From NCBI GenBank assembly GCA_944472155.2, contig OX235275.1:31114865-31178864 (forward strand): a DNA stretch of 64,000 nt, in the 5' to 3' direction. The translations under genes were made by a program, and so were the position numbers. Each line of letters begins with the position of its first letter. The first letter of the stretch is position 1. The notes beneath the pieces were generated by a model that made no database searches, had not been told where the DNA came from, and worked only from the letters and a program-made list of their open reading frames with translations. The stretch is from Trichobilharzia szidati (lineage: Eukaryota > Platyhelminthes > Trematoda > Strigeidida > Schistosomatidae). Shown piece by piece: positions 8,440 through 62,847 of the stretch.

Positions 8440-8665
8440 CCGGTCAATCAAAGGGAAATCCAATAGAAAATAAATTCAATTGTTGGTTTGTAGGGATTTG
8501 ATTGGTTACAGAATTTTCATCATGAGCTGACATTAGTTGGAGAACCACTGGAAAACCTGGGAGTACTGGACAGCTGTTCCGTCCTAGTTTGGGACTCTTC
8601 AACAGTACGCACCCACTGGGATTCAAACCCATTCTTCAATAAATTAGCCCGTTTTAAGCTTTATA
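8440..8665 (-). mobile_element. Hammerhead SINE, family F2 (single copy)
   Basis: Minus strand. A tRNA-like promoter half lies upstream ('GGGTTTGAATCCC' B-box-like), then the hammerhead, then a tail that contains 'TCAGCTCATGATGAAA' and 'AACCAATCAAA'. The same tail occurs at 13925, 14340 and (reverse) 13680. No coding capacity. Confidence 0.65.
8563..8608 (-). ncRNA. Hammerhead ribozyme relic (F2), two core changes
   Basis: Stem I GUACUG/CAGUAC is perfect, stem II GUCC/GGAC is perfect, and stem III is the palindrome-derived ACAGCUGU with the outer bases kept. The core CUGAAGA reads UUGAAGA and GAAA reads GGAA, so cleavage is unlikely. Confidence 0.6.
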
Positions 8666-11900: not shown

Positions 11901-14900
11901 AAGGACAGAGAGAACTACTTAGCAGTGCGCGCATCCTTTGATCGACAGCCAGCCGGTTATCACATATACGCAAGAGATGGCGTAAGTTGGCAGTAAATGC
12001 CAAATGAGCCTTCTGTATTTGTGCTGAGATTTCGTCAGTGATGCAATTTCCTAAATAAGTGAAGTGATCAACGCGCTCCACCACTTCACTGTTGCCTATC
12101 TTTAAGCTAGGAGTCGATGTAGTCCAGTCCTGTGGCAATATCTTACATTTGACGGGAGCAAATCGCATGCCAAACACTCGAAGACTGCTGTTCAAAGTGT
12201 TTAGAAGACTCTGCATTTTGGTAGAGTCTTAACCGAGGAGGAGAAATATATCATCATCCACATATTCAAAGTCAACGAGATCATACCCTAGTAACAAGTA
12301 AGTTTCTTAGTCTCTGAATTCAGTTAGGGTCAATTCCATTGGTACATCTATGATGAAACTAAACAGAAATGAGGCCAGCTGGCATCCTGACGGACGTACT
12401 TCTAGACAACATAGTCAGTGCTGCATTCAATGTGAAGTGAATATTTTGAAAAATATCATCTAAAAATACTTATAGTCAAATCAAACCACTAGCGAAGATC
12501 CATCCTCAAAAACCATGGAAAATTTCACTCTAACACACAAATGGAGAAGATTTTTTCAAATGGCTGGTGAAATATTAAAGCCATTCGGAATGGATATGGG
12601 TACAAAAATCACAATAAAATCACTCCATCCAATACTATGTATATATATATATATAGACCGGAACACTCAACAGCAGAAGAAGCCAGCTTTAGCACCATGT
12701 CTGAGATAAAGCTCATCGATAGATAAGTCAAAATACTTGTACCCTTCAACTTCAAATCCAAGAACATTATATATATACATATATATATATGCTATTCCCT
12801 TGGGTTCTTAGGGGAAAATAGGGCATCAACAGCATATCTCTACTTTCTTCTATTTTCTGATATCCTCTTCACCTGAGTCCACGATTGCCCATAATCTCTC
12901 ATCTCCTCCTCCGCAACACGATCTCCTCCATGTCATCCTGGTAGGGACAACCGATTCTTCGCTTCCCATTTGGATTCCACTCGAGCGATGGCCTGTATTG
13001 TAAGTGATGTTACTCGATGGCCTCCTCAACGTATGCCCAACCTATCCATCTCCATTTTATCCTGCATAAACTAGTTGTCAATAGGCACATCTATCATTAC
13101 AGATGGATGATTGTAGAAAAGTATGAACATAAATTTGATTGAGAGAATGTAAATATTGTGGACAGTGGAAGCATCTAGAATGCCAGCGAAATCCCAGAAG
13201 CCTTCAGCTCTAAACCGAGAGACATTTTGACGTTGACAGAGTTTCTTAATCAATAAATAACAAGTCACATAACAAAAAGATCAAATATTATGTCGACGAG
13301 TTGTTTCAGTACTAGTAAAAATTAACACATGGATAAAAAACCTTCTGATAGACACCAGCCACAGTCAAAGCCATCAAGAGAATTCCTTCAGTCTGAATAC
13401 ATATTCACATAAGCACTGATTGTGCTGTCCAGAAGGAGAACAGTAGCTCCGTAATCAAACCAGTCAGGTCAGATAACTCGACCACACCAAAAACCTACCT
13501 ATGAGCTACAAACCTTTCCCACTCTTTGAGGAGCTCCTGAGTATAACTTAGGAACAATTATAATTAGAATATAGTTCAATATACTAATGACGATTTCATA
13601 ATAAGTAGTGTTATTATAAAATATCTCTCTCAAGTATTGGTTTTGTAAGGAAATTTGTTGGATCGGTTGTAGGATTTCATCATGAGCTGACATCTGTTAG
13701 AGAACCAGTTGAAAACCAGCCACAGGGAGTACTGGATAGCCAGCTGTTTCCTCCGTCTTAGTTTGGGACTCCTCATCAGTACACACCAACCACAGGGTTT
13801 CGGACCAAGGACCTTCTTGTCAAAAGCAGAGGGACTTTGTAGACCATTAAACAACTGGCGCCCGATCCAATGACGAATCCATGAATTCTAACCTTTATCT
13901 TCTTCGATGAGTTACTGCTTCACCTTCAACCTCAGCTCATGATGAAATCCTGCAACCAATCAAACAAATATCCCTACAAAAATCAACACTTGAAAATTAA
14001 TATGATGGTCACTAGCTACTTGTCCTATTCAGGCAGTTAACCTGGGATTCTAGTGAGATGCTGTGACCAGTAGGTTAGAGCAGGTTGAAGGTGAGGCAGT
14101 AACTCATCGAAGAAGACATTGCGAAGTGATCACGCTATGTCATGAATTGGCAGAAGTTAGAATTCATGGGCTGACCATTGGTCTACACGCTCGCTAGCCT
14201 TGTAACCAGAATGTCTGGGTTCGAACCCTGGCGATTGGTGCTAACTGCTGAAGCAGAGTCCTAAACTAGGATGAAGGAAATAGCTAGCTGTCCAGTACTC
14301 TCAGGTGCTGGTTTTCTAATGGTTCTCTAACTGATATCGGCTCATGATGAAATCCTCCATACAATTATACATTTCTATCGATTTATGTGGTGATTCATTC
14401 CAATATTCTACTTTATTTCTTAAGTTATTTGAAAAACACGGTTGGAAATCTTATCAGATAGGTGAATTTTATATTGCTCCACCAAGTTATGAAGAGATGA
14501 AAATGTCTTCAGCCATTCAAACGACAACAACAACAACAGCAGCAGCAACAACACCATCATCATCAAGCGCTACGTCTGAATTCAATTTACAATGTTTACG
14601 ATTCACTATAACAACTGGTGCATCATTTAAACTTGTTCAAAGTATTGCCACTTCACCTGACATCTCAACATCAGTGGCATATGTTGGTCTGGGAGGTAAA
14701 CTCCTATTGGAAGCATTAGATGGTACTGGGGAGAAAACTGTCAGCTTGCCTATAACTGGTACATTGTATGCTATGGCTAAATGGGTACCAAGTAAATCAA
14801 TATTAAATGATCTGAGCAATATTGAAGCCAATAGTGGATATGTAAATAGAAGGTGATTCATATCTATGATTATTATTATTAGTTTATACTTTATTTATAC

Positions 14901-17900: not shown

Positions 17901-20900
17901 ACACACGGACTTGTCATAGGAATATATATGAAAACAAAATGCAGAGTTAAGAGGTGAGAAAATAGACTACTTAGGTCAAGTTAAAAGAACATATTGAAAG
18001 TGAAAATAACAATGAAGATCACTAAATCAAATAACAGAGGGAATAGTACATCCGCCCCGACTGATATCAAAACAAAGTTTACCACAGAAGGTGGTTTAGT
18101 GTAATGACGAATTGTTGCTTTGGACTCATGAAGGTGGTTTTAATTTCCTAACTGACAGCTAGGGCTTCCTCAAACTTTAGGATACCCTTCTCCAAACACG
18201 TTTTACAGATAGGCTGAAAAGATGGATGAGCATCAGTTTCATGTCTTGTCTCTTCTGCAATATGTTATGCAATAGAGGAGCTAGGTCTCTCGCTCACACT
18301 ATTAACAAGTTCTGTGGATTCTATTGGCTTCTGGAGCCATTTAGGAATACGTTCTGAAGCCAGCCCTTACTTGCAGAGATCGATTAGTCGTCCTTATATA
18401 TGTGTGTCAACACGTATATTCATTTGGTGAATACAGTGGGATGTGACGTCACATATATATAGAATAATCCATAGGAAGTGTAGATGTTGGGAGGGGATAT
18501 ATAATTATATGGTTAGCAGGCTATTATAAAACGTTACATAACATGGTGTGAAAGTTGATAAGATAGAATTCAACATTGTAGAAACATTTCTTGTATTTAA
18601 GATGACAAGTGGAAACAGTTCATAATGATGATAATAATTGCACACTATCATTATTTGGTGTATTCACGCCTATAATTAGAAGTTAACTGGTCGATAGTGA
18701 CTAGCAGTGGAATCCAGCCAAGATGCGCACTTCGTCCTATTTGGGACAAATCCGTCATCTGAATGTACCTGCATTCTGCAGTGAGTGAGTGATTGTGTTC
18801 CCACCGAGGCCCAAACCCAGTGCCTATAGTTTCAAACGCCAAAGCGTTATCCACTAGGACGAAATGCGCATCCTGGATCCCACTGCTAGTGTCACCTTAC
18901 ACCAATTAACTTTTAATTACATGCCCAGAAATCTTTGAAGCATCTGCACAAGGAGCAGCCGACATATCAACCTGAGACCAAGCACTTCTGTCCAATCAGT
19001 CGACAAGAAAATCTAACGTTGAATTAAATAGTCACACCACTGTTTAAATTTTTTCACGGGATATAATTTTTTTAATATGAAAAACAGCACATATATATAT
19101 ACGATTGTGTAAGTTGGTAATAAACATTTTTCACCACATTGCACCAAGAGATAAACTGGCTACTCTACCGCCTTTTCCAGCTTGTCCTATGTCTAACAAA
19201 CTGTCGCTGGGAAGCAAGTTGCTGAGTCCATATTTGTGAAACATTTCCGATACCTTCAATCTGGTGTGCGAAATCGACATCATTTGCTTACTGAATAACG
19301 ATTTCCACCATGTCTAAATACAGCCCTCCAGATATTGGAGTTATCTACACGATTATGCCATAGGATGTAAGCATTTCTCTACACAGACACAGGATATGCA
19401 GATTTATTGAGTAGATATAGAGTAAGACTGCATTCATCAAAGCACTGTCAGTCTGAGTTTTGACGGCCAGGCTAACACATTAAGACGACATCAAAGTTAT
19501 CCTAAGTTGTTGTAGCCTGCCGTGTCTTTTAATCCACGGTTCGATATCACATTTCATCTGACAACTTTGACAGCAATTACACGACTACCTGGATATAATA
19601 AATTATTGACTAGTTACAATGTTTAACCTGCAACAGTCGGTGCAGATATAGTCTCCTGCAGATCTTGCAATAGTAACTGGAGCCATTTCATGTTGGATCA
19701 AAATCTCCAGCTGATTAGTTGCTTCATGTTGAATTTCAGGGTGAGGCAAATTTTCATCACCGATATCCGTAGATGTTGGTGCTATATTTAGAATTGACAT
19801 ACGTTACCATTCATAGGTTATTGAATTTCTGCTCAGTTCGACCTTGACTAGCAATGATAGCTGATGTAAAATCAATCTGGATAAAAGTTGCAGGCGGTCA
19901 GATCATGACACCAATACATATATGGTCATTAATTTGGATATTATAAATGAACACTTGGGGACTTACTATTTGCTATCGTTGAAATTCTGTATTTCCTGAC
20001 TAATCTTCGTTGAGTATTGATTTTGTAGGGATTTGTTTTGATTGCCATATTGAGTCATAAGAAAAAGGCACAAACAGCGAAGAAAATTTTCTTTTCCACG
20101 ATTCATTTTCATGAACTATACAATCGTAATTATAATTAACAAAGAAATTTTTAGACCAATCAGATACTGGTAAATTTTGTCCTTGGAAAATTGTTTTACA
20201 TAATGTAAGGTGTAAGAAGGGATGAATAGTTGTAAGTAAGACAGGAGACAGAAGTTGGCATGACGTAATAAGTGTGAGATAATGAATAATCAATAAGCTC
20301 GTGTAAAATGGACAGGAACTAGTGGAAAGGCTGTTTTTGTGTAAAATATGAATGAAAAGCAATGTTATTAATAAACAGTAATAGAGTGGTAATAAAATGT
20401 GGATGATGGGAACAATAATAAAAATACAATTGGTCATAGTTATTTTAACTAAACAGGTGAAGATTGGTAATTGGAGTTACGTATTACAAAATCAGTCAAG
20501 AAAATCAGGTGTTAGTGAAATTAGAGTAGTAACAAAGGTGATGAGTTGTCACAAACAGTTGTTAAAAGAAGTTATGTAATAATATGAATAGTTTCATGAG
20601 TGAGTTTTACTCAGGATGCACATAGGAACAAAGTAGATAATACGAATTTACATAAGAGTTCTAAATGAATACAAGAATTATAAGCAATTAAAGAACAGGC
20701 AAAGAAACAAAATTAAGTCATCAAAATCAAAAAGATCAAATCAAATCAAAAAAGTTGTTACCAAGACAGTAGAAGTGGTTGAGTAATCCTCTTTTGTATG
20801 CACAGCTCCGGTTTTTCTATGTGAATGGCCAGAGCGATACAAAGAGGGCGAAACCGTATTGTCTTTGATAGGTTGTTCTTGACCCTGTAGATTACTTTGA

Positions 20901-23900: not shown

Positions 23901-26900
23901 TCAATATTATTATAAATGTGAATGTCCTATTTTAATTATTACCACTTTAATGAGGAAATTAGATACAATATTGATTGTATTACATGCTGAAAATTCCATA
24001 TTTATATCAAAAGCACGTACTGTTTGGAATAAAGCTATTATTATTATTATCATCAAAGAAAAGAACTTTACCAACCATATTGTTTATTTGAGATGATTCT
24101 TATCCATTATTATTATTATTTTTATTATTATTATAGATCAGCGTATATAAACAATTCGCTGAAAAAGTCCACTACAGATTTACGTTCACTTATGTATCCT
24201 TCAATGCAAATGTATCAGTCGAATCCATTATTTCTCAATACAATTGCTACTACTAATAATAATGACAACAGTACTATAACTAATAAACTTAATTTTACTA
24301 CGCCAACCCTTGATCCGAATAATACAATGGATTCAAAATTATTGAATATAATACAGGTAAGAACTTACTACTACTATTATTACTATTATTCTTACTACTA
24401 ATAACCTTTCTACAGTAGTAGAATGCTTGCCAGCTACGCTGCGGTGAGGGGGGGGGGGAGGGGAATCGGGTTCGATTCCCGTTTAGTTTGCTAGTCGATA
24501 GTAGGCTCTAAAAAGAAAGAAGGTTCGGGTGGTTAGTGAAACTATAAAGACTCAAGTCTCTGTTCATTACACTCAGAACATTGTGTTGGGTTGAAGAGCT
24601 GCGTCTCTGTGTTGACTTGTCGACAGCAAGAGTGGATGCTTCAAAGATATCTGAGCACTAATGTGAAATAATAATAATAATTTGCTTTATTCCAGAAACA
24701 GTACTAATGGTACAGTGTGGAATTTTCAGCACATATCTACAATATTTGCATCTAATTTTATCAAACATTTAAAAGGAGTATTAAACAAACAAGAAAATAA
24801 ATAAATAAATCTAAAGACACCAACAGCAAAAAAGAAACGGGATAAACACAAAATAATTTTAAATGCGAAAAAGTACCAAGAAGTAGAAAGGAAAATAAAC
24901 ATCATATAATAATATCTCAGTATTGGGTAGTGGAAGCTATGATATGATTATGCATGGTGACAGTAAAGCTATAGTCATACAAGAAGTTATGAACTGATAT
25001 TTAAGAATGTTTATTGCCAAGAAGATCAGTTAATTTGGTTGAAACAACTCTAAACAATCATACAATAACATTTCAGGGTTGTTGTTTTGTTTTATATTGT
25101 CAGGTCTAATGCAGTGTTTGTAGTGGTAGTGTGAGTAATCCTGCATAATACAAAATTTTAAGGTGGTAATAATGGTGTTCACAACCAATGATTGTCAGTT
25201 AATATTGCCGAAAAGTATAGAAAATGAGAAAAAACAACCACAGAAACTAGTAATTACATGATGGTTAATGACAGGACAATTTTGTACTACTCATAGTGCT
25301 AATAGAGTCGGAACCAGTGGATACACAATAGAAGGAATATAGTAAAGTACAAAAAAGTAAGCCAATGTTAATATTTTAGGCAGCTAAGTATGTTTGAGTT
25401 CACTATAGAATACAAAATAAGAGAGAAATAAAGGAGCCCAAAATTATGTTGTTAATAACAAAGCAAGTCATAGGTGAAGATAATTAGGTTCACATTGACT
25501 AGGCAGGGAATCCAGGATGGGGATTTCATCCTATTTAGGACTTGTCAGCTGCGTGTGCCTACATTCCCAGTACTTATCGTTTTAAATGACAAATTGGGTA
25601 AGCTCAGATGACGAGTTTTGAGCAGCACGAAATACGCGTCCTGAATTTCACTGTTAGTCACCGACAAACCAAGTAAATCGGCCCTATTTTTGTTGTTCTA
25701 TTCACTAAGCTAGGTGGTTTAACTTAGTGATGGCATTCGAAGTGATACCGGAGGTGAGTACCATTCGCCTCAAATGCCAAAATGTTTTCCACTCAGCAAA
25801 TATGACATAAGAATAATGCCATTCGTTATTAGGCGAAACATATGGCATATAGTGAAGGGAACGTAATTACCAAAGAGGAGAAGGGAAGGAAAACAATGAT
25901 CCGACGACTTCAAAGGACACTTCAGTTGGTAATCACCTAGAGTTCACAGAGAAATACCAACAATAACAACAGTCAAAGAACTGTCATTGGAAACCAACAC
26001 TTCAGTAAAAGCAGACGTCTTGAATTCTATGAATTTAATGAAACCCAGAAAGGCAGAAGGACTAGATGGAATTCCTCCAGAAGCACTGAAAACGAATCCA
26101 GAGACCTCAATGAATATCTGCACGCCACTTACAAAGGAAGTTCGGAAAGAAGAAAAGGTGTCTACTAATAGGAAAAAATGCTACACTGTCAAACTGCCAA
26201 GGAAGAGCGACTCAGGTCTATGGGAAAATTGGCGCCGAATCATGCTTTTGTCGACATCAAGCAAAATATAAAGTCGCGTCACCTCAGTGAGACTAAGAGA
26301 TTCATTGGGTTCAGAATCTAGTTTCAGGAGAAGCAAATCATGTGAGGACCGGAATCCAGCACTAGCCATCACCATCAGACACGTTGTCGAATGTGTAAGT
26401 CAAACTTCTATCTCAGCTTCATCGACTTTGAAAGAGCCTTCGACAGAGTTGTCCACGAAGTGATTTGGAGACAACTTCAACACTCTGGCGTGCTCCAAAT
26501 TGTCATCACCCTCATTTAACAGCTATGTGACAATCAGACGTATCGAGTAATCCATATCAGAAAATTCAGAGAAACCTTTAAAGGGAAGTGTTGATGATAT
26601 TCCTAAGTTCGGCAGGTCGTGGAGAGTGAGAAGACCGGAATTCTCTGGAAGATGTGGACTTCATAGATGATTTAAGTATAATATCATATAAACTCGAAGA
26701 TCTGCATGTGGAAACCAACAAGTTGGCAGAGGATGCAGAGGGTGGAGACACGACTGACGATGGAGATGCCTAACCACCGCCAAAACCGACAAAAAGCAAC
26801 AAACACTGAAAGCGTGAATTTCATGAGGAACCAGTGAATGAATGCTGACCTCCTGCTCACTACTGACCTGATTTTAGAATCGGTGTCCGGAAGTTCTAAT

Positions 26901-32900: not shown

Positions 32901-35900
32901 CATGTGTCAGTTTGTAGAGGATATTTTAAAGTTTATCTTAAAATTCGACACGAACTGAATTCATTTTGAGAACCGCTGAAAACTATGAAAAAATACTGGA
33001 CAGCTTAGTTTCAGTACTCTCCAGCATTATGCATACACTATCACCCCGCTAGTAATCAAACCCAGAATCTTCGGATAATAATAAGGCGAACGCATATACC
33101 ATTCCACTACTGGGATGGAATCCGATTGCCCCCTTGAATCCCAACTGCTGCCAACATGCGATATATAGCGCAACAGCCAGTTAGTGTTATTGGTCAGCAG
33201 TTGGTCTCACAACCAACTTATTGGAGCTTGCCAGTGACGAGATCTCACTAGAAATAAACTAAACCTTGTTGTTAGTCATAATTTGGTTTGCGGTGATTTT
33301 AGGTTTGAATTGATGAATGTGCTTCATTGCAGTAGCTCGCTGGTATACGAGCTTGCTTTGCAGCCTGAAAGTCATGGACTCAACTACAAGAGGTGTTCGT
33401 ACTTCTGAAGAGTCCTAGACAAGGACGAAACGTGTGTCCAGTTTTCCCTGGTTTTCAATGCCTCAATCTTGGAAACTGTAAAAGTGCAAATCAGTTAGTC
33501 AGATAAATATTTTTTTTACTAATTTCTAATCTGACTACTTATTTATTTAATTTTTTTTTTGTTGTATTTCTATAGTCATTGACTGAGAAGAAGAGTTTAG
33601 ATACACATTATAGTACACTGAAAGGTATGAAAGCCTATAAACAGAAGCATAAAATGTATATTGATAAGGTGAGTAATCTAATACAAAATTATAACAATCA
33701 TTTAATACTATAAGCGATATTTTATTTGTAAGTTAAATATTATAAGATTATTTTTAATTCACATTTGTAATTTCCCACTGATCTGTTTTTACTGATACGA
33801 CAATGTCCCTGGATCAACTCTTCGACATAACTAACTGTGAGAAGTAACTTAGAATTGCATGTTTTTGTGGTTGCCGGCACAAGAAGTAACTCCTATACCT
33901 CAGTGGCCTAGTTAGTGAATAACCCTCTAGCATTTTAAGCGACAGATGCTGCATTCGAGTCTTTATGGGAATGCCACCAGTTAGCACAGCGTATGCCTAG
34001 CTAACGAGTCCTAAAATAAGACGAAACATGCATTCTTGATTCTGTTGATATATGCCAACAGAACAATTAACGCCGAGAAGATGGTAAGGTTTTGTAATAT
34101 GAATAAGACATTAAGAAGAGAAATACTATTGCGTGGTGATATCATCACTTCCTAGTTTCTTTACGACCGCTTTACAAGTTACATGGCTGGGAATAATAAA
34201 ATAGAATTCAATTTTAGTTTCTCCCGTCGTTTGATTGGACTGAATTGCTCGGTCTCAGGTTGACATGTCGGCTTCTTGTGAAGATGCTTCGACAATATCT
34301 GGGCATGTAATTCGAAGTTGATTGGTGAATGATGACTAGCAGTGGAATCCAGGATAACTCACATTTCGTCCTACTTGGGACTCGTCTTCTGGATGTACCT
34401 GTATTCCTCAGTGAGTGATGATGTCCCCACCGATGCTCAAACCCACTGCCTAAAGTTTCAAACACCAAGGTGAAAACATCACCACTCACTGCGGAATGCA
34501 GGTACATCCAGATGACGAGTCCCAAGTAGGACAAATGCGCATCTTGGCTGGATTCCACTGCTAGTCACCATCCACCAATTAACTTCTAATAAGATGGAAT
34601 GATTCTGCAATCACTCACTTATATGAAATAAAAGTGAATGTCAGATAACTAAAGCGTATTTTAGTAGTTTAATAATTCCCATTGTAGCATTAATAAGACA
34701 ATATTCAGCGAAGAGACTCTTTTGAAAAACGAATTTATTATCAAGCTGTACAGTCATATATATATGGTTTTTAAGAAATTATATCCGTTGAGGGAATTAG
34801 ATCCAAAGTGTGAATACATGAAATAATAATAGTATGAAATGCAATTAAAATATTTGTGATCATAATCATAGTGAAGTGTCAAGTGTCAAGTAGCAAAACA
34901 ATTAATGTCATATGTAGAATAATACATGAGGTATAGATGGCGGAAAGGGCTGCATAATTATAGGATTAGTAGACGAATATAAAATGCTACATAACATGGT
35001 GTGAAATTTTGATAAGATAGAATTCAATATTCTATATCAGTCCGTGATCAACTCTTAAAACATAACTAATCCTTATAAACCAAACTATAGAAAAAAACCA
35101 AAAAGATAATTTTGGATTTAGAATGACAAGTTGGACAAGCGGAAACAATTCACAGTGAGAATAGTAATACTAATACTAATAATAATAATCGTAGTAATAC
35201 GGGAAAGATACACAGATTAACTAAATAAACAAACTAAATAAATGTCTATCCCTCCACGGCCAAGGCAGAAGTAGGGATTGTACATACTTCTTTTGTACAC
35301 AAAGGTCTGGCTTAAAGTCATGAACTGCCAAGGCCTCAGCTGTCTTTAGAAGTCTGTAACGAAGAAAACGCAGCCAGTTAGCATGGATTCGGTAGATGAT
35401 AATATTAAAATCATGTTCAGGGTTGGCAGAGTGACAAGAGTCGATCAAGTGTGTTCCAAAATAGAGACAACTTCTCACACCCTCCCTTTTACTCTTGTAA
35501 AACCATGCTGGAATTTGTGCTCTCATATACGTGTGGGAAGCGTCCTCTGACTACGGCCAATGTAACTTGCTCCACAAGAGCAGGTGAATTGGTAGATGCA
35601 CATGGCGAATCGATTTTTATTGAACACACCTCGGAAAGTTAAGCCAACTGTTAACTAAATTAATTGGTTGCATAAGTATGAGCTTTAAGATTGTCCAATC
35701 GCATTATAATGAAAACTTTGCCTCGACCTGATGATCTACGTTTGTCCAAATCGATTTTACCTAATTCTGTATACATCTTATCACTTTATACAAATTGCAA
35801 CAGTAACAATTGGTAGATTACACGGGTTAACTGTGAATATTCCTTCGATTGGTAGGTCTTAACTGTTCTCTTTCAGTGCTGTTATCTTCTCTGAGTTGAA

Positions 35901-38863: not shown

Positions 38864-38907
<44 letters not shown>

Positions 38908-47900: not shown

Positions 47901-50900
47901 GATGATTTATATCTACCGTCACACAAACTCGAAGACTTACAGGCGAAAACTAACAAACTGGCAGAAGAGGCTGGCTGGCTGGCAGGGGAGACAGGACTCC
48001 AGGTGAACATACACAAGACGGAGGTGATAAAGATAACTAGCTAACTAACCAAGGAACAGCTAACAACAACCAGCACCAATCACCATCAAAGTGAGAAATT
48101 TGAAAGAGGTTACTTCCCTAACTTATCTAGGCAGTATCGTTTCAACTACAGGATGAAATGGAACAGGCCTTCATCAACCTGAAACCAGTTTGGAAATCCC
48201 CTGAACTGATTCAGCATAAACAATAAGATTCGGACTTTCGATACTAGTGTCGAGTCAATCACTTCTTCTAGATGTGTCAGAAACTTGGCGCGTTACTCAA
48301 AGCACTTCCAACAGGCGGCGGACGTTTGTCGACAGGTGCCTTCTCTGGCTCTATGCTGAAGATCAGATGGACAGTCAGAAAGAATTAGCGAAATAAACTC
48401 TGGGAACAAACCAGTCAAGAACTTATTACTCAAGACATATACAGAAGAGAATGAAGATGGGTCGGCCACACGGTGTGGAGGTCTTCGAATGACATCGTAC
48501 GGCAGGTGCTTGAGTGGAATCCAGGTGGAAGACGACGAGTTGTGCGTGAGTCGGAGGGTGATATTGAGGAGGTTGTGTTATTAGGATACTGGAGTCTATG
48601 TGCAGTCATAGATATGACGTGCTGTTGAAGCCTTATGTTCTACTCGGAACCCTAAAGAAATAATAACAATAAAAATAAATGTTTCTTCTAACTGTTGTAT
48701 ATGATAAAGATAAGGCCAAACTGTTAATGCTATATATTTTTTTATCATATACACTAAATTTGGTATTAGTGTTTCATTTCCCTTTCAAAAACCATCCCGA
48801 TTCTTCTTTTCATTTCACTGGTCAGTTTAACAGCGGAAACACCAAATTTAGAATGCATGAAAGATCCAATCATCATTAATGTCTACGATCAAGTGACATT
48901 CAGTCAGGCAGAAAGTGAACAGTCGGAACCATTGTCAACGTCATCATCATCACACTACATACAACGTATTGAACATCGTTTAATCGGTTCAACTGAAGTA
49001 CCTTTGTCAACAGTTTACTTGAACTCTAAGGTAGGTGAATTCATTTAGTACATATGCAACTATTTATACTTGTGATTGTTTCGATGTAATATCTGAATGC
49101 ATTACTTCCATGGCTGTTAGACTGAGTGTAGGCTGAAGCTGAATAAAGCAACGCGGTTGTACAACCCTGAAAAAATCTGATGTGAGTGATACCGGGCAAA
49201 GTGAAACTTTAAACACCGCTGACTACCAATCAGCGAATGACCTCGAACGCACCAATCACATGAAACAGGCATTTTTGTGTATGGAATACATATGTTTATT
49301 AAAAAAAGTGCTTAAAAATTGTAGAAGAGTGTTATAAAAGATACCTTCATCTCATAGGTGATGAAAATAGCTTGCAGTTTTAGGTTGGTGTATCAATAGG
49401 GTGTAATTTCATTGTGGGCAAAATTTATTTTGATAAAGTCTCATAGTGCTATACAGTAATATTTACTGAGCAATAAATTGTGCCCGTCGGTGGCATAGTG
49501 GTAGGACGCTCTCCAACCATGCACAAGGTCCGGGGTTCGATTCCCGGCCGACGCACTCCCTTACCTCGCTAAGCCAGAAATAATACTGGTGAAGAGGAAA
49601 GGTTGGGCATGAGGCTAGCAACCCCATCCTGTAAAAATAAACACTGCTACAGAAACTTCAAGCCACTAGCTTGAGGCCCTATGTTCCACTGGGGAACGTG
49701 AAGGAGAAAAATAAATAAATAAATTGTGCTCGGAACGTCATCAGAAAATAATAATTTATGACACTGTGAAACCTTATCAAAATAAATTTTATCCACAATG
49801 GAATTATATCCCACTACCACAGTGCAGAAGTTATATTCTTATATCAACAGAGTAATTTAACCACATTCTATGGATGTAATTATTGAGGTCTTCTAACCCA
49901 AATCTTTCCTGAATCTAACCCTTACGTGAAAATATCTCTTAACTAACTGTAATCTAACTAGAACCAACCCTAATGTCGCCTTTATTAGATTAACCTAACC
50001 CTAACTTGTCCATGGCTTAAAACGTTACTTTATCTTTCCCAAACCTAGGCTGAAACTTGCTAGATATCCCATTTAATGGCATAACACTTCGATGAGCGCA
50101 TATTATTGATGACGACAACATTATTTGTCAGCTTCCACAAACTCGCTCAGTGAATGTTCCAAGGTCACTGGTGCGGTCACACTCCATTGGTAGTTAGTGG
50201 TGCTTAAAGTTTAACTTGACCTGATACCGGTAATTTAAAACACTATCATCCAATTTTACAGTCAGAGACACTACCAATGAGTAATTATTATTATTATTGT
50301 TCCCTTGGGTTCCTAGTGGAACATACGGCTTCAACTGCACTTCTCCACTTGCTTCTGTCTTGTGCTGTACTTTTCACTTGCGTCCATGTTATTCCATACT
50401 GTTTCATCTCCTCCTCACACGATCTCCTCCATGTCACCCTTGGACGTCCCACTCGCCGCTTCCCTTTCGGGTTCCACTCGAGCTATGGCCTGACGCGCGA
50501 CGTCACCCAGAGGCCTCCTCAGCGAGTGTCCAATCCATCTCCACTTCCTCCTGCATATTTGTTGGGCGATTGGTTCCTGTTTCGTTCGTTCCCATAGCTT
50601 CTTGTTAGTGATTCTTTCCGGCCATCTAATCTTCAGTATGGAGCGAAGACAGTTGTTGATAAAGGTCTGCAACCTGTTGAAAATATTCTTTGTGACCCGC
50701 CAAGTTTCTGATCCGTAAAGCAAAATTGACTTCACGTTTGTATTGAAAATCCGAATTTTGTTGTTGATGCTGAATGACGAAGATTTCCAGATTGGTTGTT
50801 TCAGGTTGATGAATGTGTTTCTCGCCTTCCCGATTCTCGATTTGACATCCTCGTTTGTTCCACCTACCTGTAGTTGAGACAATGCTCCCTAGCTAGATAA

Positions 50901-53900
50901 GTGAATGAAATAACCACTTTTAAATCCCTCTGGTTGATGGTGATTGGGGCTGGATGTTGCTGTTGTTGTTGTTGGTTGGTTATTTTCATTACCTCCGTCT
51001 TGTCTATGTTCACCTGGAGTCCTGTCTTCTCTGGCTGCTTCTTCGACCAGTTTGTCGGTTTTCGCTTGTAAGTCTTCAATTTTGTGTGACATCAAACATA
51101 AATCATCCGCAAAATCCAGGTCTTCTAGGTTCTTCACGTCTGTCCAGGATATCCCTGTCTTCTCGTTTCCCACTGTCTGACGCATAATCCAGTCCACCAC
51201 AATTAGGAATATCATTGGTGATGATATGCACCCTTGTCTGACTCCTGTGTTTACTCCAAACGCCTTGCTGAGTTTTCCGTTGTGGATCACTTGACATGTG
51301 CCGTTGTCGTACAGTTGTTGAATAAGGTTGATGAATATTTGGGGTACGCCGTAGTACTCGAGTAGTTTCCAAATTACTTCGCGGTCAACGCTGTCGAAAG
51401 CCTTCTCAAAGTCTATAAAGTTGAGGTAGAGATTTGATCGCCATTCCATGCTTTGTTTGATGATGATGCGTAGAGTTGCAATTTGGTCAGAACATGATTT
51501 GCCTTTCCTGAATCCAGCTTGTTCTGGTCGGAGTTCTGTATCCAGTGCGTCCTTCATTCTCTCCAGGATGATGCGACTCAGGATTTTACTTGGCGTCGAC
51601 AGGAGCATGATTCCTCGCCAGTTCTTGCAGAGTCCCAGGTCGCCCTTCTTTGGTAGTTTCACCAGGTAACCTTTTCTCCAGTCAGTAGGCACCTTTCCCT
51701 CTTTCCAGATCTTTTGCAATAATGGAGTCAGCATATCTGCTGTCGTTTCTGGGTCCGCTTTCAGTGCTTCCGGGGGTATTCCATCTGGTCCAGCTGCCTT
51801 TCCATCTTTCGGAAGGTTGATTTCATTCATGACTTCAGCTTTCGTTGGAGGATTGGTGTCAACTTGCAGTTGTGTACGTGCTGTTGTTGGTATTACTGGA
51901 CGGGTTGTAGGTGGTGGTCGATTCAAGAGTCCTTTGAAGTGGTCCGCCCATTGTTTAATCTGTCTTTCTTCCTTGGTAATTGGGTTCCCTTGGTTGTCTT
52001 TTATAGGTTTCAATTGTGTTGATCTCTTCCCGGATAAAGACTTGGTTATCTGATATAGTGTCCTCAGGTCCCTTTTGCCTGCTGCCTTCTCAGCTTCAGT
52101 AGCCAGGTTGTCGTAGAATTGTCTTTTGTCCTTCCTGGCACTCTTCTTCACTTCTTTGTCCAGTGCTGTGTAAGTTGAGTTCAGCGTCTCTTTCTCTTGT
52201 CCATCTTTGCATTGAATCATTTTTTCTTTCACCTTTCTCCTCTCCTCTATTAGTTTCCAAGTGTCTGTTGAGAGCCATTCCTTGTCTTGTTTCTTCTTTC
52301 TTCCTAAAACCGTTGAGCACGTTTCGTTGAAAATTGCCTTCAGAGAGTTCCAGTGGTCTTCCACGGATGATTCCTCAGGGGTGCCACGTAGTGTTTCCTG
52401 CTTTGCTCTGACAGTTGCAGTGTAAGTGTCCTTTGTGGTTGTGTCTTTCAGTTTTTGCGTGTTGAACTTGCATTGTGGCCTATCCCCAGGTATCCTCGAG
52501 GCTTTCAGCTTCACCTTGAAAGTCCTTTGTACTAGATAGCGGTCTGAACCGACATCTGCTCCTCTCCTCGATCTTGTGTCCAGTAGGCTCCGTCTCCACT
52601 TCCTTGAGATTGAAATGAAGTCTATCTGGTTTTTGGTGTGTCCATCTGGTGAAATCCATGTTGCCTTGTGTATATCCCTGTGTTTGAACACACTGCCACC
52701 AATCACCAAATCATTGAAGGCGCAGAAGTCTGAGAAGAGTTCGCCATTTTCGTTCATTTCACCGAGGGCCTCACGACCCATGGTGAGTTCTCTTCCTGTA
52801 TTGTCTCCTCCCAGTTTCGCATTCATGTCGCCCATCAGGATTTTGATATCGCTCTTTGGGACGTTGTCCATTACTGTTTGTAGTTGACTGTAGAAATCCT
52901 CCTTCTTCTCATGTTCTGAGGCGTTTGTAGGCGCGTAGCACTGAATGATTGTAACCTTTTTTCCTTTTGAATTGAACCTGGCTGTCATTATCCTGGAGGA
53001 GATTGGTTCCCACTGCATGAGAGCTCTAGCCGCTGTTGGTGACATCATGATGGCTACTCCCTCGGTGTGCTCGTGATTGTCCTCTGGGTGACCGGAGTAG
53101 ATTATTGTCTCTCCAGTTGATAGTTGGCTCCTTCCACATCCGTTCCATCTGCTCTCGCAGATTCCCAACACTTCTACTTTATATCTCCTCATTTCTGTGG
53201 CTACTTGAGCAGCCTTCCCAGCTTCGTACATTGTACGAACATTCCACGTCCCCATCCTTATTTTTGCTTTCATCGAAAGAAGGCATATCGGCTGACTGGC
53301 TTCCCGAAGGCTTTCACCAGCCCGCGTCATTTCACTTCCCCGATTCCAGCGAAAAATAAGGTCACTATTTGTAATTTTAGAATTTTGAATATATTTGTGC
53401 GCTGAAGTTTTAGTAGCAATTTGGTTAAGTTTTGGGGGTGGAGTTGCTAGCATCACGCCCCAACCCTCCCTCTTTATCCGGGCTTGGGACCGGCTAGAAT
53501 ACTAGTGACCTAGTAATCTAGGCGAGGTTACCAATGAGTAAGGGTGGGGAAAATTGTCTATCTACTAGGGGAAAGAAGGTTAGTTAGTTTGTGCCCATTT
53601 TTGATTGGACACTAGTAACTAGTGTGACGTGTCTAGTCCTTTCTTTGGTGCAGGCTGAATTCTATCAGTCAGGTTTCGCAATGTGGCCACCATTCTAGGT
53701 ACTCGCCATCACGGTGCACATTGATTTGATGATATTAGATAGTTGGAGGCAATCAGCAGGAAGCCTTCGACCTAGGTTTCGTGCTAGCTGGCACTCATCA
53801 GCAAGGTGTATCTGCAGTCTTGAAGGAATTCATGTCCTTTCTGAGATTCAAACCCGCGTCACCCAGTGGCGATGAGTGCCAACCAACACGAAACCCAGGT

Positions 53901-56900
53901 CCAAGGGTTCCTTCCGATTGCCCCCAACTATCTAGTTTGTCCCTGACACTATTTTCATTACGTAAAATATGGTATCGTGGAATTTTTAAGACAAAAGGTG
54001 AGAGAGAGTATCATTGAAATTAAAGGAGTACTGCAGATCTGTTTCGTCCTGATTTGAGGCTCTTCAGTAGTAGCACTTGTTTGGCACAGGACCTTCAGGC
54101 TACTAGGGGACAGCGTAGTGACCCATTAATTCTAACTTATGCCACCCCATGATTAGTAAAGTTACAGCCACTCAATGCTGTTTATTACCGTCCTAGTGTC
54201 TATTCAGTTAACGTGTCGGCCTAGTAGGCTGGAGGCACCGGGTTTTAATCCCAGAAAGGACATGAATTCCCTAAAGACTGCAGATACGCCTTGCCTACGA
54301 GTGCCCAGAAGCACGAAACCTAAGTCCAAGGCTTGTTGCTGACTGCTTCAAACCACCTAATAACACATTATGCGTCGGTGGTGCGGCCTTAAAATAGTCA
54401 CCAGCCACGCCCCACGTGGTTCAAGGGTCAATCCCTGGTCAATGCACTCCTAAACCCCACCTAACCTTTAGTAAGTCCCTTAGGAAACGAAGACCCGGCG
54501 TGAAGCTAGCCTGCGAAAATAAAACCACTGCTTATGATGATGATGATGAAACATGAGAAATGGTTTACCTTCATTGTAACCAGCCGAAAACAATTCCTTC
54601 ATTCTTCTTAATGATTTCTCCTGCATTTTTCTTTAGGTTAGCGGTAGAATCAATTTATCAGTTCCAATAATTCTACAAGGATATGAGACCGTAAATCTAG
54701 CCAAATCTTCAATTCGACCAATGGTTGATGTTTTGATGACATTGGAGCCATCAATTTATCCACCCGCCCCATTAATGGACTCGGTGAGTAGGATTTATCA
54801 TCCCAAACGTATATTGATTACTTTCTGGTGCCTTGAGTTTTCTTTGGTTTGGTTCACACACACACATAGAATGAGAGGAATCTGTGTTGAAGTTGACGTA
54901 CACCCTGAAGAGATTATTCAAATACCAGGATAGCCCAAGGAATATCATACAATGTTTCTGTGTGCCCGGGTTAGGCTGTAACAGTTTGATAGCAATGGAT
55001 TCTGTGAATTCAAGCAACTGGAATTTTTTCTCTTTATTGATTATTTAGAAAGTAAGACTGTTTACCTCGCTAAGCCAGAAATAATGCTAGTAAAGAGCAA
55101 AAGGTTGGGCATGAGGCTGGCGACCCCATCCTGTAAAAATAAACACTGCTACAGAAATTTAAAGCCTCTAGCTTGAAGCCCTATGTTCCACTGGGAACGT
55201 GAAGGAATAAAAAAAAGACTGTTTCAGGACTGTATGCCATGTCTCGATTACACGTGAACTGATATATCTCCAGCTGTATATGTGAATCCAAACGCGGGAG
55301 CAGTTTTACATTTGGAGATAAGAAAGAAAGGATATTGTCAGATTCTTTAGCTGTGTACTGAAGAGACTTCGATTATTATTATTGTTGTTTCTTTTCATTC
55401 CTAGAGAAACATAGGGCTTCAGCCGTGCGTCTCCATTGCGTTCGGTTCTCTGCTAGAGTCTTCACCTGGCCCCAAGTCTGCCCACACGTTGTCATCTACT
55501 CTTCACATGACCACCTCCAAGTCACCCACCCTCGCACTGACGACCAACTCGCCGCTTCCCTTTCGGGTTTCACTCGAGCAATGGCTTGTCTAGTGATGTC
55601 ACTTGATGGTTTCCTCAGAGTATGGCCAACCAATCCATCTCCATTTCTTCCTGCCTATTTGTTTCACAATAGGTTCCTGCTGTGTTGGTTCGCTCCCAGA
55701 GATCCCTGTTGCTGATCTTTTCTGGCCGGCCATCTGATCTTGAGTAGTATTGAGCGAAGACAACTGTTAATGAAGGTCTGCAGTTTGTTTGAGATGCTCT
55801 TCATAACGCGCAGTGCAAGTCTCTGATCCGTATGGTGAGTAGCACTGACTTCACATTGGAGTTGAAAATCCGGATCTTATTTTTGATGCTGAGTGTTGTT
55901 GACCTCCACACAGATTTGAGAGTAGTGAAAGCTTGTCTTGCTTTTCCGATTCTTGCTTTGATATCCCCGTCAGTTCCGCCTGTATTTGAGACGATGCTTC
56001 CCAGGTAGGTAAAAGAGGTTGTTTCTTTCATGTTTTTCCCATTTATGCTGATCGTTGTCTGTTGTTGCTGTTGGTGGTGTTGACCTAGGAATCTTCATCA
56101 CCTCTGTTTTCTCTATGTTCACGTGAAACTCTATCTTTGATGCTTCTTCTGCCAACTTGTTGATTTTCACTTGCATATCTTCCAGTTTGTGGGATTTCAG
56201 ACATATATCATCGGCGAAGTCCAGATCCTCTATATATTATTATTCCCTTGAGTTCCGAGTGGAACATATGGCTTCAGCAACACATATCCATATTGTTCTA
56301 TTTGGTACTGTTTCCTTCACTTGTCTAGCCCCACGACTGTCCATAGTCCATCATCTCCTCCTCCCCAAACGACCTCGACCATGTCACCCTCACACCAACC
56401 ACCCACTCGTCGCTTCCCATCCGGATTCCATTCGAGCGACGGACTGCATTTAGCCCAGTGTCATTCGACGGCCTACTAAACGTATGCCCAACCGACCTAT
56501 CTCCATTTTCTCCCACATATTTGTTGAACGATCAGCTCTTGTCTGTTTGTTTGTTCCACTGCAGAGTTTTTTTGTTGCTTATGCTTTCTGGTCAGCTGGG
56601 CGGGTGGCCATTTGATCTTCTATGTGGAGCCGGGGATGTGTACAGTTTTTGATGGAAGTCTGTAACTTGTCAGAAATCCTTTTCGTTACGCAGTGACGAA
56701 GTTTATGAGCCATACATAGGAACTGACTGACTTCACGTTTGTGTTGAAAATCCGAATCACGGGTTCTTTATGCTAAGGCGTAGTGCAGAAGATTTCCAAA
56801 CTGGTACCAGGTTGATGAAGGCGTATCTCACCTTTCCTATTCTTTATCCGTTTTGACTTCCTGTGGTTGAAACGATGCTTCATAGAAAATTAAAGGACGG

Positions 56901-59900
56901 AAGTCACTTCTTTCAAATCTCTCCCGTTAATGGTGCTGGGACTGGTTGTTCTTCTTGTTGCTGTTGATTGGTTATCTTTATCACCTCCATCTTCTCTATG
57001 TTCACCTGAAGTCCTATTTTCACTGCCTTCCTCTTCAGGGAGTCCATGTGAAGGAGAAATAAAGACTTATGGGCAATTGAGGAGTCGTAATTAGACTGAG
57101 CGCAGTGGAGACTGTTAATGCATTGCAGCTCAACATATATGTATGTATGTAACATCAAATTTAAGAAGCATGTGACCCTGAGTAATGACGAATGTGGGGT
57201 ACTCAATACCAGTCAATAATCTTCAAATAGGTTGCTGCTGTTCTAGGAACCTCATTTCTGTGCTCTATAAAACCCACCAGTATAGCTAAATAAGGATGTA
57301 ATGAAAAGTAGTGACTGTTCGCGTTTATCACATCTGATTCAGACATACCATGATGGTTTGGTTGCACTCAAGTGCCTGTCTGGAGTATAACGTCACTCAA
57401 TTATCTCTCCAGAGTATTTCTAATCGATCGACAATTCAGTTTAACATATTTGTTAGGCAATAGGTCGTTGTAAGATTTGTAGCCAGAGTGTCCCTTCTGG
57501 CCAACTGATTTTACTATCGAGATAGGGAATGCAGAAGTTAAAAAAATTATGCGACAGCTTGTTGTTGACACTTTTGCTGACGTGCATGACAAGTCTCTTA
57601 ACAATATGGAAGCGTAACGGTAGAAGTCGATAGACATGATAACGGAATGTACATTTATTTCTTCTCCACTTTTCCCAGTAGCACATTCTCAAGTGTACTG
57701 ATTTGCTACATTCAGACCACAAATCTTTTCTATAATCTATTCGTAGCGCTGCTACTTCACGCTGCGTATCTTCAATTCCCCGTTCCCATTCACTCAATTT
57801 CGGTGGCTCTATTGTGGTTACCAATGTACTTAACGACTGTCTGATCAGTTTCGCTAGCTTGTCAATGTCCTTAGGTTGTTCAGAGTAATCCAATTGTAGT
57901 ACAATGAAAAATCGAATCTGGGACACTCTTGATGAGTTTGGAAGCAAGCAACTGTGACTTCGAATCTTTTTCCCATGTGTAGAGTGTGCGACGAAGTAGA
58001 TTCGCCAGCTTCAGTGCCAACACTAACGGGTTTCCGTCAGATCCCAGCTTCATGGTACGGAAATACTGCATTGTCAGCTGCCTGTCTGTCAGGCTGTGGA
58101 ACTCCGCCACCAATCGTTCAACCAGTTCCCTTTATCACCCAACTGTTGCACAGTGTCGAATGCCACCTTTTCCCAGTCTCTCAGCCGTAGTATCTTTGAC
58201 GCCCAACAACTCAGAGGCGGCGTCGAAGTCCCTCAAGAAGCTCCTGATGTCTCCTTTTGTCGAGAGCAGCCGACCATAGGATTTCCACTGATTAGAGGTA
58301 GTGATAACAAATGTGTTAATTCTGCCTTGTGTTTCTTTGTCGTCTTTTCCTGTCTTCCATGTTTTGCCACAATACTCACCGGTCCATTTGCTCTGTCTCT
58401 CTCCCGCTATTTGATATACTTTTGTGGCAGCAAACATCTCCTCACGCATTACTGATACATATTGTCAGCAGTACACGCCAGAAAAGTACTGATTTTGACT
58501 TTGGTGTTGAAGATACGATTCTTGTTCTTCATGCATACTGTAGTAGATGTCTGATCCTACCTTTGAAACTCTGAAATCTATAATGATCATCTTTTTTTTC
58601 CTTCACGTTCCCAGTGGAACATAGGGTTTCAAGCTAGTGGCTTGAAGTTTCTGTAGCAGTGTTTATTTTACAGGATGGAGTTGCTAACCTCATGCCCAAC
58701 CTTTCCTCTTCACCAGCATTATTTCTGGCTTAGTGAGGTAAATGAGTGCGTCGGTGGCCGGGGATCGAACGCCGGACCATGTGCATGGTTGGCGAGCGTC
58801 CTAACCACTATGCCACCGACGCACATGCTGAGTTACGCTGATGCAGTACCAAATTTAACACTATAGTTCAAAAGTAATTTATGCGTAGTTCATATTCCAC
58901 TGGAACTCAATTAAATAAATGTATCAAATAAAGTATAATTATATTTCAATAGTTTACACACAATGATAAGTTTTGTTATGAAACAGCAAAGGTAGTCAGA
59001 TAAATGAAAGAAGTAATTGGTAAGTCAAAATGGTTTGAAATTTTGCCAAAATCATGCAATATACCTAGAATATATGGCAAGATAAAATTGCATAAAGAGG
59101 GATATCCAATAAGACCGATTGTAGACTTTAGAAACACACCGACGTATATGCTATCAAGATTTCTCTCGACAATACTAAGACCAACAAGAGACAACTCAAA
59201 CGCTAGAATAGTAAATTCATTTGAATTAGTGAAGCGACTAAAAACCACTAAAATAGAGGAAGATGAAATACTAGTCAGCTTTGATGTAAACAGTCTGTAT
59301 ACGAAAATACCCATTCAAATGGCCATGAATGCACTGAAAGAGAAACTAAAAGAAGATAATGGCCTAAAAGACAGAACACAGTTATCCGTAGAAGAGATAA
59401 TAAAAGGGGTGGAATTCTGTCTGACAACAACATATTTCACATTCGAAGGGAAGATATACCAACAAAATGAAGGAGTGGCCATGGGATCGCCTATCTCACC
59501 AATAATAGCTGACATATTCATGGATTATTGGGAAGAGAATGCCCTTAAACCATTCAGGTCATCACTGAAATGTTGGTGGAGATATGTAGACGACACACTA
59601 GTAATAGTGAAAAAAACGATATTGAGGAACTCTCCTCACACATAAACAGCCATGTCGACTCAATAAAATTCACTATGGAAGTAGAGAATGAAATTGGGTA
59701 ACTACCTATGTTAGACTGCAAAATACAAAGAATAACAGATGGTAGCATTAAAACGACGCTATATAGAAAAACCACACACTCTAGAAGATTCCTTGATTAT
59801 CACTCAGCTCATCCACTCACGGTGAAACGAGGATTAATACAAGGTCTTGCAGATAGAATACGTAGACTTACAACAACGCCAGAGGACCAATGTAAAGAAA

Positions 59901-60956: not shown

Positions 60957-61139
60957 GTAAGCATATATATAAATAATGTGAACTATGGCCTTTATGGATT
61001 TTCTTTTCTCATACAGGAATCTTTGCTTCCGGAATTATTTTGTTCCTTTCTCTGATCACATGGATGTCTGCATGTTTGCCTTGGGTGTGACGGTGATCTT
61101 TTCTTTTCTCTCTGAAGAAGATCCGGAACTATCAGTAAT

Positions 61140-61700
61140 TGCTTCATTCAATTTTAGATTTTCCCGTTGACTGATTGGACTGAAGTGCTCAGTTTCAGGG
61201 TGACATGTCGACTCCTTGTGCAGATGCTTCGACGATGCGTGGTCATGTAACTAGAAGTTAATTGGTGGGTGGTGACTACCGGTGGAATACAGTCAAGATG
61301 CGCATTCCGTCCAATTTGGGACTCGTCATCTGGATGTACCTGCATTCCTCAGTGAGTGGTGATGTTATCACCGAGGCTCGAACCTAGTGCCCGTAGTTTC
61401 GAACGCCATGAAAGCCACCTCTTGTCCTACAGGTCACATTAATTATTAATTAAGCACTTCGGTCCAATCGATCGACGGGGAAATCAAAAAATTGAATTGA
61501 ATAATTAAAATGACCCTTTGCACAAGAGACAGTGGCTCTCGTGGCCTAAGTGGCATAGTGGATAACGCTTTGGCGTTTGAAACTATGGTCAGTGGGTTCG
61601 AGTCTCTGTGGGAACACCACCACTTAGCTGACGAGTCCTAAATCGGACGAAATGCACATCTTGGCTGGATTCCACTGCTAGTCACCATCTACTAATTATC
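61140..61700. repeat. Head-to-head pair of F1 SINEs
   Basis: The minus copy is 61435-61140 (tail 'GATTTTCCCGTTGACTGATT' outward, head near 61420). The plus copy is 61530-61700 and starts with a complete tRNA-like head: A box 'TGGCATAGTGGATAACG', B box 'GGGTTCGAGTCTC'. About 95 bp of spacer. The plus copy lacks the block between head and hammerhead. Confidence 0.85.
61622..61668 (+). ncRNA. Hammerhead core (F1) with intact boxes but lost stem I
   Basis: CUGACGA (61628-61634), stem II GUCC/GGAC with loop UAAAUC, GAAA (61649-61652), stem III UGCACA-like (from AUGCGCAU), triplet AUC ending at 61660. The 5' strand of stem I (normally AUCCAG) was deleted, and the new one (CUUAG) pairs poorly with UUGGC. 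Confidence 0.7.
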
Positions 61701-61819
61701 AGTAACTACTCCCTGATTTTTGGAAATGTTGTTTCTGTTTTTCTGGTTAAAACTAGTTACTGCAGTTATTTTATCCAATAATCCAAAAAGGATTCTCATT
61801 GTATTTGAAGTAGAAGTGA

Positions 61820-62000
61820 TTTGGGGAGTGGTGACTAGCAGTGGAAACCAGGATGCGCATTTTTTCCCTGTTTACGACTTGTCGGCTGGATATACCTACA
61901 TTCTCCAATGAGTCAGTGAGTGATTGTGTTCCCACTGAGGTTCGAATCCAGTAAGTATTGTTCCAAACGTCAAAATGTTATCCACTAAACCATTCGGGCA
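61820..62000 (-). mobile_element. F1 SINE, minus copy
   Basis: Reversed order: 'GACTAGCAGTGGAAACCAGG' (after the cleavage site), a hammerhead with CCGACAA core and a broken stem II, then the head ('GTGGATAACATTTTGACGTT'-like, 61970-62000). Tail to tail with the plus copy at 61530. Confidence 0.7.
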
Positions 62001-62847
62001 ACGAGGTTCTTCACACCTTGTACAGCGAGAATGAATTCTAACTTTCCCGTTGATTGATTAGATTGGAGTGTACAACTTCTGTTGTTCAAGGATATTCTGA
62101 ATTGCCATGAGTTGAATTGATTACGCCTTGTGTTTGAGAACACACGAATCAACAATGATATCTCATCTTCTCATAGCTTCACTTCAGTATTGTACAGTTT
62201 ATTTAGTGTGTTTATATATGCAATGCAGTCTGACAGCAGAGGTCAAAGGTTATGTGTCAGTTAACAACAGATCAGATCAAGGTGGATGAGTAATAGCTGT
62301 GTTTGAAAGATTAGAAATAGTCTCACGTAATCAAAAGAGAGTTGACAACTAATAGGTTCAGGGATAAACAATCACTTGGGAGTGTTTGATAAGGGACAAG
62401 AGAACAACAGATTGATTATGAGTTACAGAAACATACAGTGAACGACTTAGAGCGTATTTCATAGTTATTCAAGAAGACGATGATGGAACGAAGAAAGAGC
62501 GAAGAATATCCTATTGAGAGTTCCCTCTTTTGGTTCTATAAGAAATATATAAATATATTTATACACAGAATATTCTAGAATAATCGTCATTAACAATATT
62601 GGTGCTCTTCTAATACTGTCGATTTGTTAATTAAGATCAGTGAAATTACAGTTCACGAAAGATGCATAAATTATACTAGTAATGAAATTATAATAGCAAA
62701 AAGAATATCAAATAAGATTAAGGAAATTTCTACAAAAAATTAAGGATCATTAGGAGCTAGATAGCCAATGTTAGGACAGTGTCTGAACCAACATCTTCTT
62801 TTGGATACATCAGTTAGGTTTCTTAGTGTGGATCCGGACAACCAACT
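62001..62847. other. Unassigned intron sequence
   Basis: AT-rich. 62040-62075 resembles the F1 tail. No gene seen. Confidence 0.25.

Follow-up and report, generated by a model that had tools for sequence, protein, structure and literature searches.

Non-LTR retrozymes of metazoans carry type I hammerhead ribozymes and, in the available parts of the account that describes them, have a tandem structure (PMC7229834), the word 'inverted' occurring nowhere in the text of that article. The SMalpha SINE-like family of schistosomes is counted among such retrozymes in the accessible portion of PMC8490949. Cervera and de la Pena (2020; PMC7229834) put forward Penelope-like elements (PLEs) as a strong candidate for moving retrozymes, and this link is repeated in PMC7761336, PMC11722881 and PMC8969392, as far as the available sections of these four sources extend. 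The link is thus already known as a proposal, and inversions in PLEs are already known as well.

For PLEs, the available sections of Arkhipova et al. (2013; PMC3846280) describe inverted pLTRs that are mostly head-to-head, with a tail at one of them and duplications of 8-10 bp, with self-priming on antisense RNA as the suggested mechanism. Frangieh et al. (2024; PMC11167929) reported that the PLE protein of Anolis cleaves and extends both strands, that it starts reverse transcription (RT) at two internal sites bounding the genomic 'tail', and that in vitro these start sites show no difference between strands.

The hammerhead elements analysed here belong to three families, F1, F2 and F3. Taking the metazoan retrozymes as portrayed in the published sections available, the elements are like them in their type I hammerhead, in a unit of 327-402 nt (about 170-400 nt expected), in duplications longer than 4 bp and perhaps, going by F3, in tandem copies. 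They differ in the frequency here of inverted composites whose end types are opposite, whereas the published form is tandem.

Materials and methods

The window is the whole stretch of DNA analysed, 64,000 nt of the avian schistosome Trichobilharzia szidati (G000:C5:31114865-31178864), in a host genome of 1.11 Gb. Each reference unit was taken from an actual contiguous copy (F1, 327 nt, from L019; F2, 402 nt, from L074; F3, 340 nt, from L092), and strict alignment scores were used, lenient ones having extended into the flanks of old F2 and F3 copies. The F1 sample comprised the best 74 scored hammerhead matches of 368,299 first-look candidates, which fall in 67 loci, all extracted; it favours intact ribozymes, and pairing played no part in its choice. 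For F2 the best 20 of 39 scored copies besides the window copy were taken. The F3 sample consisted of 12 loci from 43 rows, ten of them from the upper part of the list, with L098 and L099 chosen because the list already showed pairs there.

The locus pairs L011/L012, L027/L028 and L074/L079 each have the same composite and matching flanks, and are therefore probably segmental duplications of the insertion site. L012, L028 and L079 were dropped as such duplicates, leaving 65 non-redundant loci for F1, 19 for F2 and 12 for F3. Two false composites, L072 (a secondary match) and L092 (a palindrome in a tandem array), were excluded from the count of outer ends only.

Composites in the window

The first-pass annotation had described seven head-to-head pairs of hammerhead SINEs in the window. 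Five of these are clear composites, in which each arm ends outward at one of two 3' sites, S or T, while decay prevents classification of the pairs at 25496/25605 and about 32944/33303. The retrozyme features, with arms as given by alignment and hammerheads judged by the Rfam gathering threshold, are as follows.

8475-8631, minus strand: single-arm F2 copy (Rfam search and alignment), with a T end; target duplication not significant
13630-14371: F2 retrozyme composite, aligned to the contiguous F2 unit; minus arm 13630-13932 with its T end outward, plus arm 13932-14371 made of tail, head, hammerhead and then S; hammerhead 13729-13782 (minus strand) under gathering; target duplication not significant on its own
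18668-19029: F1 composite; minus arm 18668-18857 (S end), plus arm 18855-19029 (T end); joint inside the hammerhead; hammerhead 18712-18764 (minus strand) under gathering; duplication not significant
25496-25678: decayed F1 pair; minus arm 25496-25571, plus arm 25605-25678, both outer ends near the S region; hammerheads 25510-25554 (minus strand) and 25602-25646 (plus strand) under gathering
32944-33456: decayed F2 pair, minus arm then plus arm, arm scores 13-27; hammerhead 33399-33444 (plus strand) under gathering
34205-34596: F1 composite; minus arm 34205-34468 (T end), abutting plus arm 34469-34596 (S end); hammerheads 34347-34394 (minus strand) and 34506-34553 (plus strand) above gathering; duplication with 3 mismatches in 13, marginal (null P 0.04)
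53599-53934: F3 composite; minus arm 53599-53868 (T end), plus arm 53871-53934 (S end); HH9-like match 53746-53819 (minus strand) under gathering; duplication with 3 mismatches in 13, marginal (null P 0.065)
61143-61698: F1 composite; minus arm 61143-61451 (T end), about one unit long, spanning the tail-to-head junction and with an internal deletion, plus arm 61453-61698 (S end); hammerheads 61287-61335 (minus strand) and 61622-61670 (plus strand) above gathering; duplication with 2 mismatches in 13 (null P 0.005)
61803-62070, minus strand: F1 copy, tail-to-tail with the preceding composite and taken as a separate insertion

The duplication around the composite at 61143 is the sole clear one among the retrozyme pairs of the window, and the two decayed pairs have weak arms, gaps and no significant target duplication. 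Where gaps had been placed at about 13930-14075 and 61420-61530, the plus arm begins in the tail, passes the tail-to-head junction and reaches the hammerhead; since arms read through this junction, what looked like a tail fragment, a gap and a copy at 61453-61698 or 13932-14371 is one arm. Tail-to-tail neighbours, of which one had been counted, number two in the window (34042/34205 and 61698/61803). The earlier reading had also overlooked the fixed opposite S and T ends, the PLE at 58923-60702 described below and the fact that the arms at 13630 and 61143 are contiguous.

In the window, the Rfam type I hammerhead model RF00163 had five matches that exceed gathering, besides several of lower score, and the F3 hammerhead matches HH9 under gathering only. 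We take these elements to resemble the schistosome SMalpha family. Words like the Pol III A box and B box, the marks of a tRNA-type SINE, were noted in them by eye, and ARAGORN found no tRNA in the window. Adjoining the F3 composite there is a match to the type-P1 twister ribozyme (53460-53534, minus strand; 60.2 bits against a gathering threshold of 67.2), which sits at the 5' end of a LINE frame (50892-53501, minus strand) with RVT_1 and Exo_endo_phos domains. The open frame at 14335-14853 was without any match in a homology search.

Pairing across the genome

At a typical locus one flank is followed by the minus arm, the joint, the plus arm and the other flank, with the heads facing inward. 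Leaving aside L072 and L092, head-to-head composites were scored by script at 53 of the 65 non-redundant F1 loci, 12 of the 19 F2 loci and 6 of the 12 F3 loci (4 of 10 once L098 and L099, picked as pairs, are left out), and those at L049 and, with its tiny arm, L017 were overlooked by the script. Consecutive arms at most 300 bp apart in non-redundant loci (n = 87) were head-to-head in 77 cases, tail-to-tail in 6 and direct in 4, which corresponds in the same order to 53/3/0 in F1, 18/3/1 in F2 and 6/0/3 in F3; two of the 77 sit in the F3 loci picked as pairs, and one F1 tail-to-tail case is an alignment artefact at L049, really head-to-head. Neighbours within 500 bp among the best 74 scored hammerhead matches comprised six in minus-plus order, none in plus-minus order and one minus-minus, and copies met by chance in loci extracted for other reasons gave 14 head-to-head, no tail-to-tail and 3 direct neighbours. 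Composites make up a smaller share of this older, unselected chance-met set, as 45 of its 73 arms stand alone. The head-to-head excess across three families that had been noticed in the window holds in these larger samples.

The second arm is very small at L017 (about 11 nt by eye) and L037 (15 nt), and is easily overlooked in repeat annotation. Three short F1 copies (L021, L030 and L035) all cover unit positions 105-212, ending at S with no second arm, which may reflect a preferred stop or a distinct short RNA. F3 forms direct tandem stretches of 340 bp at L088, L092, L093 and L097, which are possible sources of multimeric RNA. In F1, over-length arms are present, yet there are zero direct neighbour pairs in 65 loci.

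A search for a single target duplication around each pair, which the first-pass annotation had proposed, found one in 47 of 73 composites, the flanks of the whole composite matching with a score of at least 9, compared with 0.65% of 2,170 shuffled partners. By family, this score was reached in 39 of 53 F1, 5 of 13 F2 and 3 of 7 F3 composites, and the commonest match length was 13 bp (21 of the 47). Examples are ACACCGGTTTCTA at L003, TCTGAGAGAAATT at L019, AAATCGCAAGCAT at L025 and AACCAACATCTTT at L048, and the 20 F1 cases inspected have duplications with A/T-rich ends. No recognisable duplication was found in 26 of the 73, including 8 of the 13 F2 rows and 4 of the 7 F3 rows. Single-arm insertions with a duplication of their own are present at L033 and L047 (both by eye) and at L091.

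Independent insertion of copies beside or into each other might also place two arms together, and tail-to-tail and direct neighbours (6 and 4 of the 87) do occur. As an origin of the head-to-head pairs it is nevertheless extremely improbable, since there is one duplication per pair, the arms abut or overlap (gap of at most 2) in 42 of 49 F1 composites, with no space for a second duplication, and the end types of the two arms are opposite in nearly all composites, as detailed below. The single duplication, the abutting arms with microhomology and the recurrence in three families lead us to conclude that the head-to-head pairs are genuine and arise during insertion, as had been suggested from the window.

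Ends and joints of the composites

In F1 the S end reads ..CCACCAATTAAAT and the T end ..AAAATTCAATTAAAT, with CAATTAAAT common to both words. According to the script, 68 of 71 composites have S at the end of one arm and T at that of the other, 39 with T and 29 with S on the left (binomial 2.5e-17 against one half, for copies that are not fully independent), and in 66 of 69 without the two picked F3 loci. Of the three exceptions, two (L001, L009) prove to be S/T when read by eye, whereas L053 is not assignable that way. Outside the 71 there are an S/S composite of F2 at L076, the gap of which exceeds the 40-bp limit, and a T/T pair of F2 at L101, a chance-met copy.

Microhomology at the 28 clean joints of the 49 F1 composites averages 2.04 nt versus 0.66 in the null, and all 20,000 simulated means fell below it. 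The F1 joints are spread over the unit, and a hot spot at the hammerhead cleavage site, which lies after U174, was looked for and not found, U170-180 holding 4 of 56 joint coordinates (1.9 expected). Right copies that start in or just before the hammerhead, as reported from several pairs of the window, are for the same reason not general, and because the joints are spread in this way priming or template switching at the structured ribozyme is not supported as a general cause.

Another route to inverted arms is self-priming, in which cDNA or antisense RNA serves as its own template after folding back, a route proposed for bdelloid Penelope elements in the available sections of PMC3846280. The head-to-head orientation, variants common to both arms and the joint of L003, which lies at stem I of the hammerhead, would all suit such a process. 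It predicts, however, equal outer ends, which differ in the 68 composites mentioned above, as well as neighbouring joint coordinates, whereas the coordinates of the two arms are a median of 98 nt apart and lie within 15 nt of each other in only 2 of 71 composites (about 6.5 expected at random). Given these differing ends and distant coordinates, self-priming is not supported and seems very unlikely.

The RNA template

The junction from T to the head is crossed by 41 of 142 arms, counting those with 20 nt or more on either side of it, and 26 of the 142 exceed one unit, which implies a circular or multimeric RNA template. Non-consensus bases are common to both arms of a locus in 105 of 380 cases (27.6%; 45 loci), L053 alone supplying 23 of the 105, versus between-locus sharing with a mean of 7.9% and a maximum of 12.1% in 200 shuffles; this fits one template or one source, and gene conversion could add to it. 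Two passes over the same columns within one arm have 6 of 56 non-consensus bases in common, which is near background, and a single monomer circle copied round twice is therefore not supported. The dimeric or circular RNA intermediate envisaged earlier is compatible with the over-length arms.

Arms longer than one unit, together with the single-arm insertions at L033 and L047 (both by eye) and at L091, are in line with single-site TPRT of a dimeric or circular RNA. The product of that reaction is, however, direct repeats and not inverted ones, and as a source of the composites its probability is close to negligible.

Twin priming is known for human L1, where the second target 3' end primes on the RNA, with a microhomology joint and one duplication as the result; it is a minority outcome, and its parts do not overlap on the RNA. 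The retrozyme composites differ in being frequent, in having arms that overlap on the template and in a second fixed start site. The classical form of L1 twin priming, in which one linear RNA yields parts that do not overlap, does not fit them, at least 30 template columns being common to both arms in 45 of the 49 F1 composites.

Both strands might also be primed on two separate RNA molecules, or by LINE rather than PLE machinery. Such a reading, which we regard as unlikely, draws on the overlap of the arms on the template, on the few variants that two passes within an arm have in common, on the LINE frame of the window with its RVT_1 and Exo_endo_phos domains and on the L1 precedent; against two RNAs stand the sharing of variants between arms above background and the strictness of the S/T rule, which is unexpected for two independent molecules, and against a LINE the fact that a PLE of the same genome bears the same signature.

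Comparison with Penelope-like elements

The PLE lies in the window between the F3 composite and the last F1 composite.

58923-60702, plus strand: young PLE; 57-nt minus arm 58923-58979 (S end), plus arm 58980-60702 (T end)

Its arms form a 57-bp perfect inverted repeat, and T lies 33 nt beyond S, the extra tail being 60670-60702. The 11-bp duplication around the element, TAAATAAATGT, occupies 58912-58922 on one side and 60703-60713 on the other (null P 0.002). RVT_1 was found above cut-off in 59004-59642 and a weak GIY-YIG in 59702-60499 (E 0.0014; 19.3 bits versus a cut-off of 22.6), the two open frames being separate, and a comparison of the endonuclease piece with PDB sequences gave weak unrelated rows only.

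The family is represented by 40 scored matches, 95-98% identical and including full-length relatives, among which pairs within 3 kb are head-to-head in four cases and tail-to-tail in none, with several direct tandems too. Further composites on contigs C4, C7 and C2 combine a tailed T end with an S end in every case; the duplication measures 11 bp on C7 and about 14 bp on C2, both by eye, and C4 has none. Outer ends of the S and tailed T types were thus present in 4 of 4 PLE composites examined, 3 of them flanked by duplications that range from 11 to about 14 bp, two of these read by eye; the fourth head-to-head pair, on C8, was examined at its joint only. One head-to-head PLE composite (G000:C2:94511200-94511460, L111) adjoins sequence that by eye is like the F1 T-end tail.

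The retrozyme composites show the inverted parts of the PLE type and one tailed outer end in 68 of 71 cases, next to 4 of 4 in the PLE, and the same anatomy is seen directly in both. As PLEs are described in PMC3846280 (available sections) and PMC11167929, the likeness extends to head-to-head inverted parts, an optional tail of 30-40 bp at one end, a short duplication, an AT-rich target, two RT start sites and extension of both strands in vitro. The differences are that retrozyme units measure just 327-402 nt, that the distance from S to T is about 115 nt in F1, 130 nt in F3 and 20-37 nt in F2, set against 33 nt in the window PLE, and that the retrozyme duplication is most often 13 bp versus 8-10 bp in bdelloid elements (PMC3846280, same sections). 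A scan of viral contigs for the hammerhead word found none. The machinery of the PLE is a candidate for moving the retrozymes and probably does so, judging from the signature that both have in common.

Insertion model and significance

We consider F1, F2 and F3 likely to be animal retrozymes of the non-autonomous kind, for which both strands of the target often act as primers at insertion. In this model, a staggered cut would expose a 3' DNA end on either strand, the overhangs measuring about 13 nt, and each end would prime reverse transcription of retrozyme RNA, one at S and the other at T. Both cDNAs would stop at variable points and their 3' ends would be joined via short microhomology, after which fill-in would leave a head-to-head composite, its outer ends being S on one side and T on the other, flanked by one target duplication of about 13 bp. 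We postulate that one RNA, circular or multimeric, could serve both ends, and that a Penelope-like RT/endonuclease could carry out the insertion, with one RNP holding both sites. Observations that run counter to the model are the S/S composite at L076 and the T/T pair at L101, the 26 composites in which no duplication was recognised, the low sharing between two passes of one arm, the many solitary arms among chance-met copies and the uniform start sites of the Anolis PLE on both strands in vitro.

A more tentative extension, which we find plausible without quite favouring it, is that two-ended priming is regular for retrozymes and PLEs alike: one ribonucleoprotein, in which a dimer of the protein sits on a single RNA (circular or multimeric), would hold S and T and cut both strands about 13 bp apart, each 3' end going to a different site, so that inverted composites would be the normal product and single-arm copies incomplete ones.

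The opposite-ends rule and the genome-scale evidence for frequent retrozyme composites seem to be new within the literature covered, outside which most subscription papers lie; a search of that literature for head-to-head hammerhead SINEs or retrotransposons found nothing, and for Penelope and twin priming the titles and the beginnings of abstracts held nothing on PLE integration. In their available parts, published accounts do not settle the way in which animal retrozymes are mobilised or by which PLEs synthesise the second strand. Retrozymes and the young PLE have an insertion signature in common, consisting of opposite S and T ends, one duplication of about 13 bp and a microhomology joint. 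The composites argue against the self-priming model, and they predict a two-site, two-strand reaction that is testable in the existing purified PLE system.
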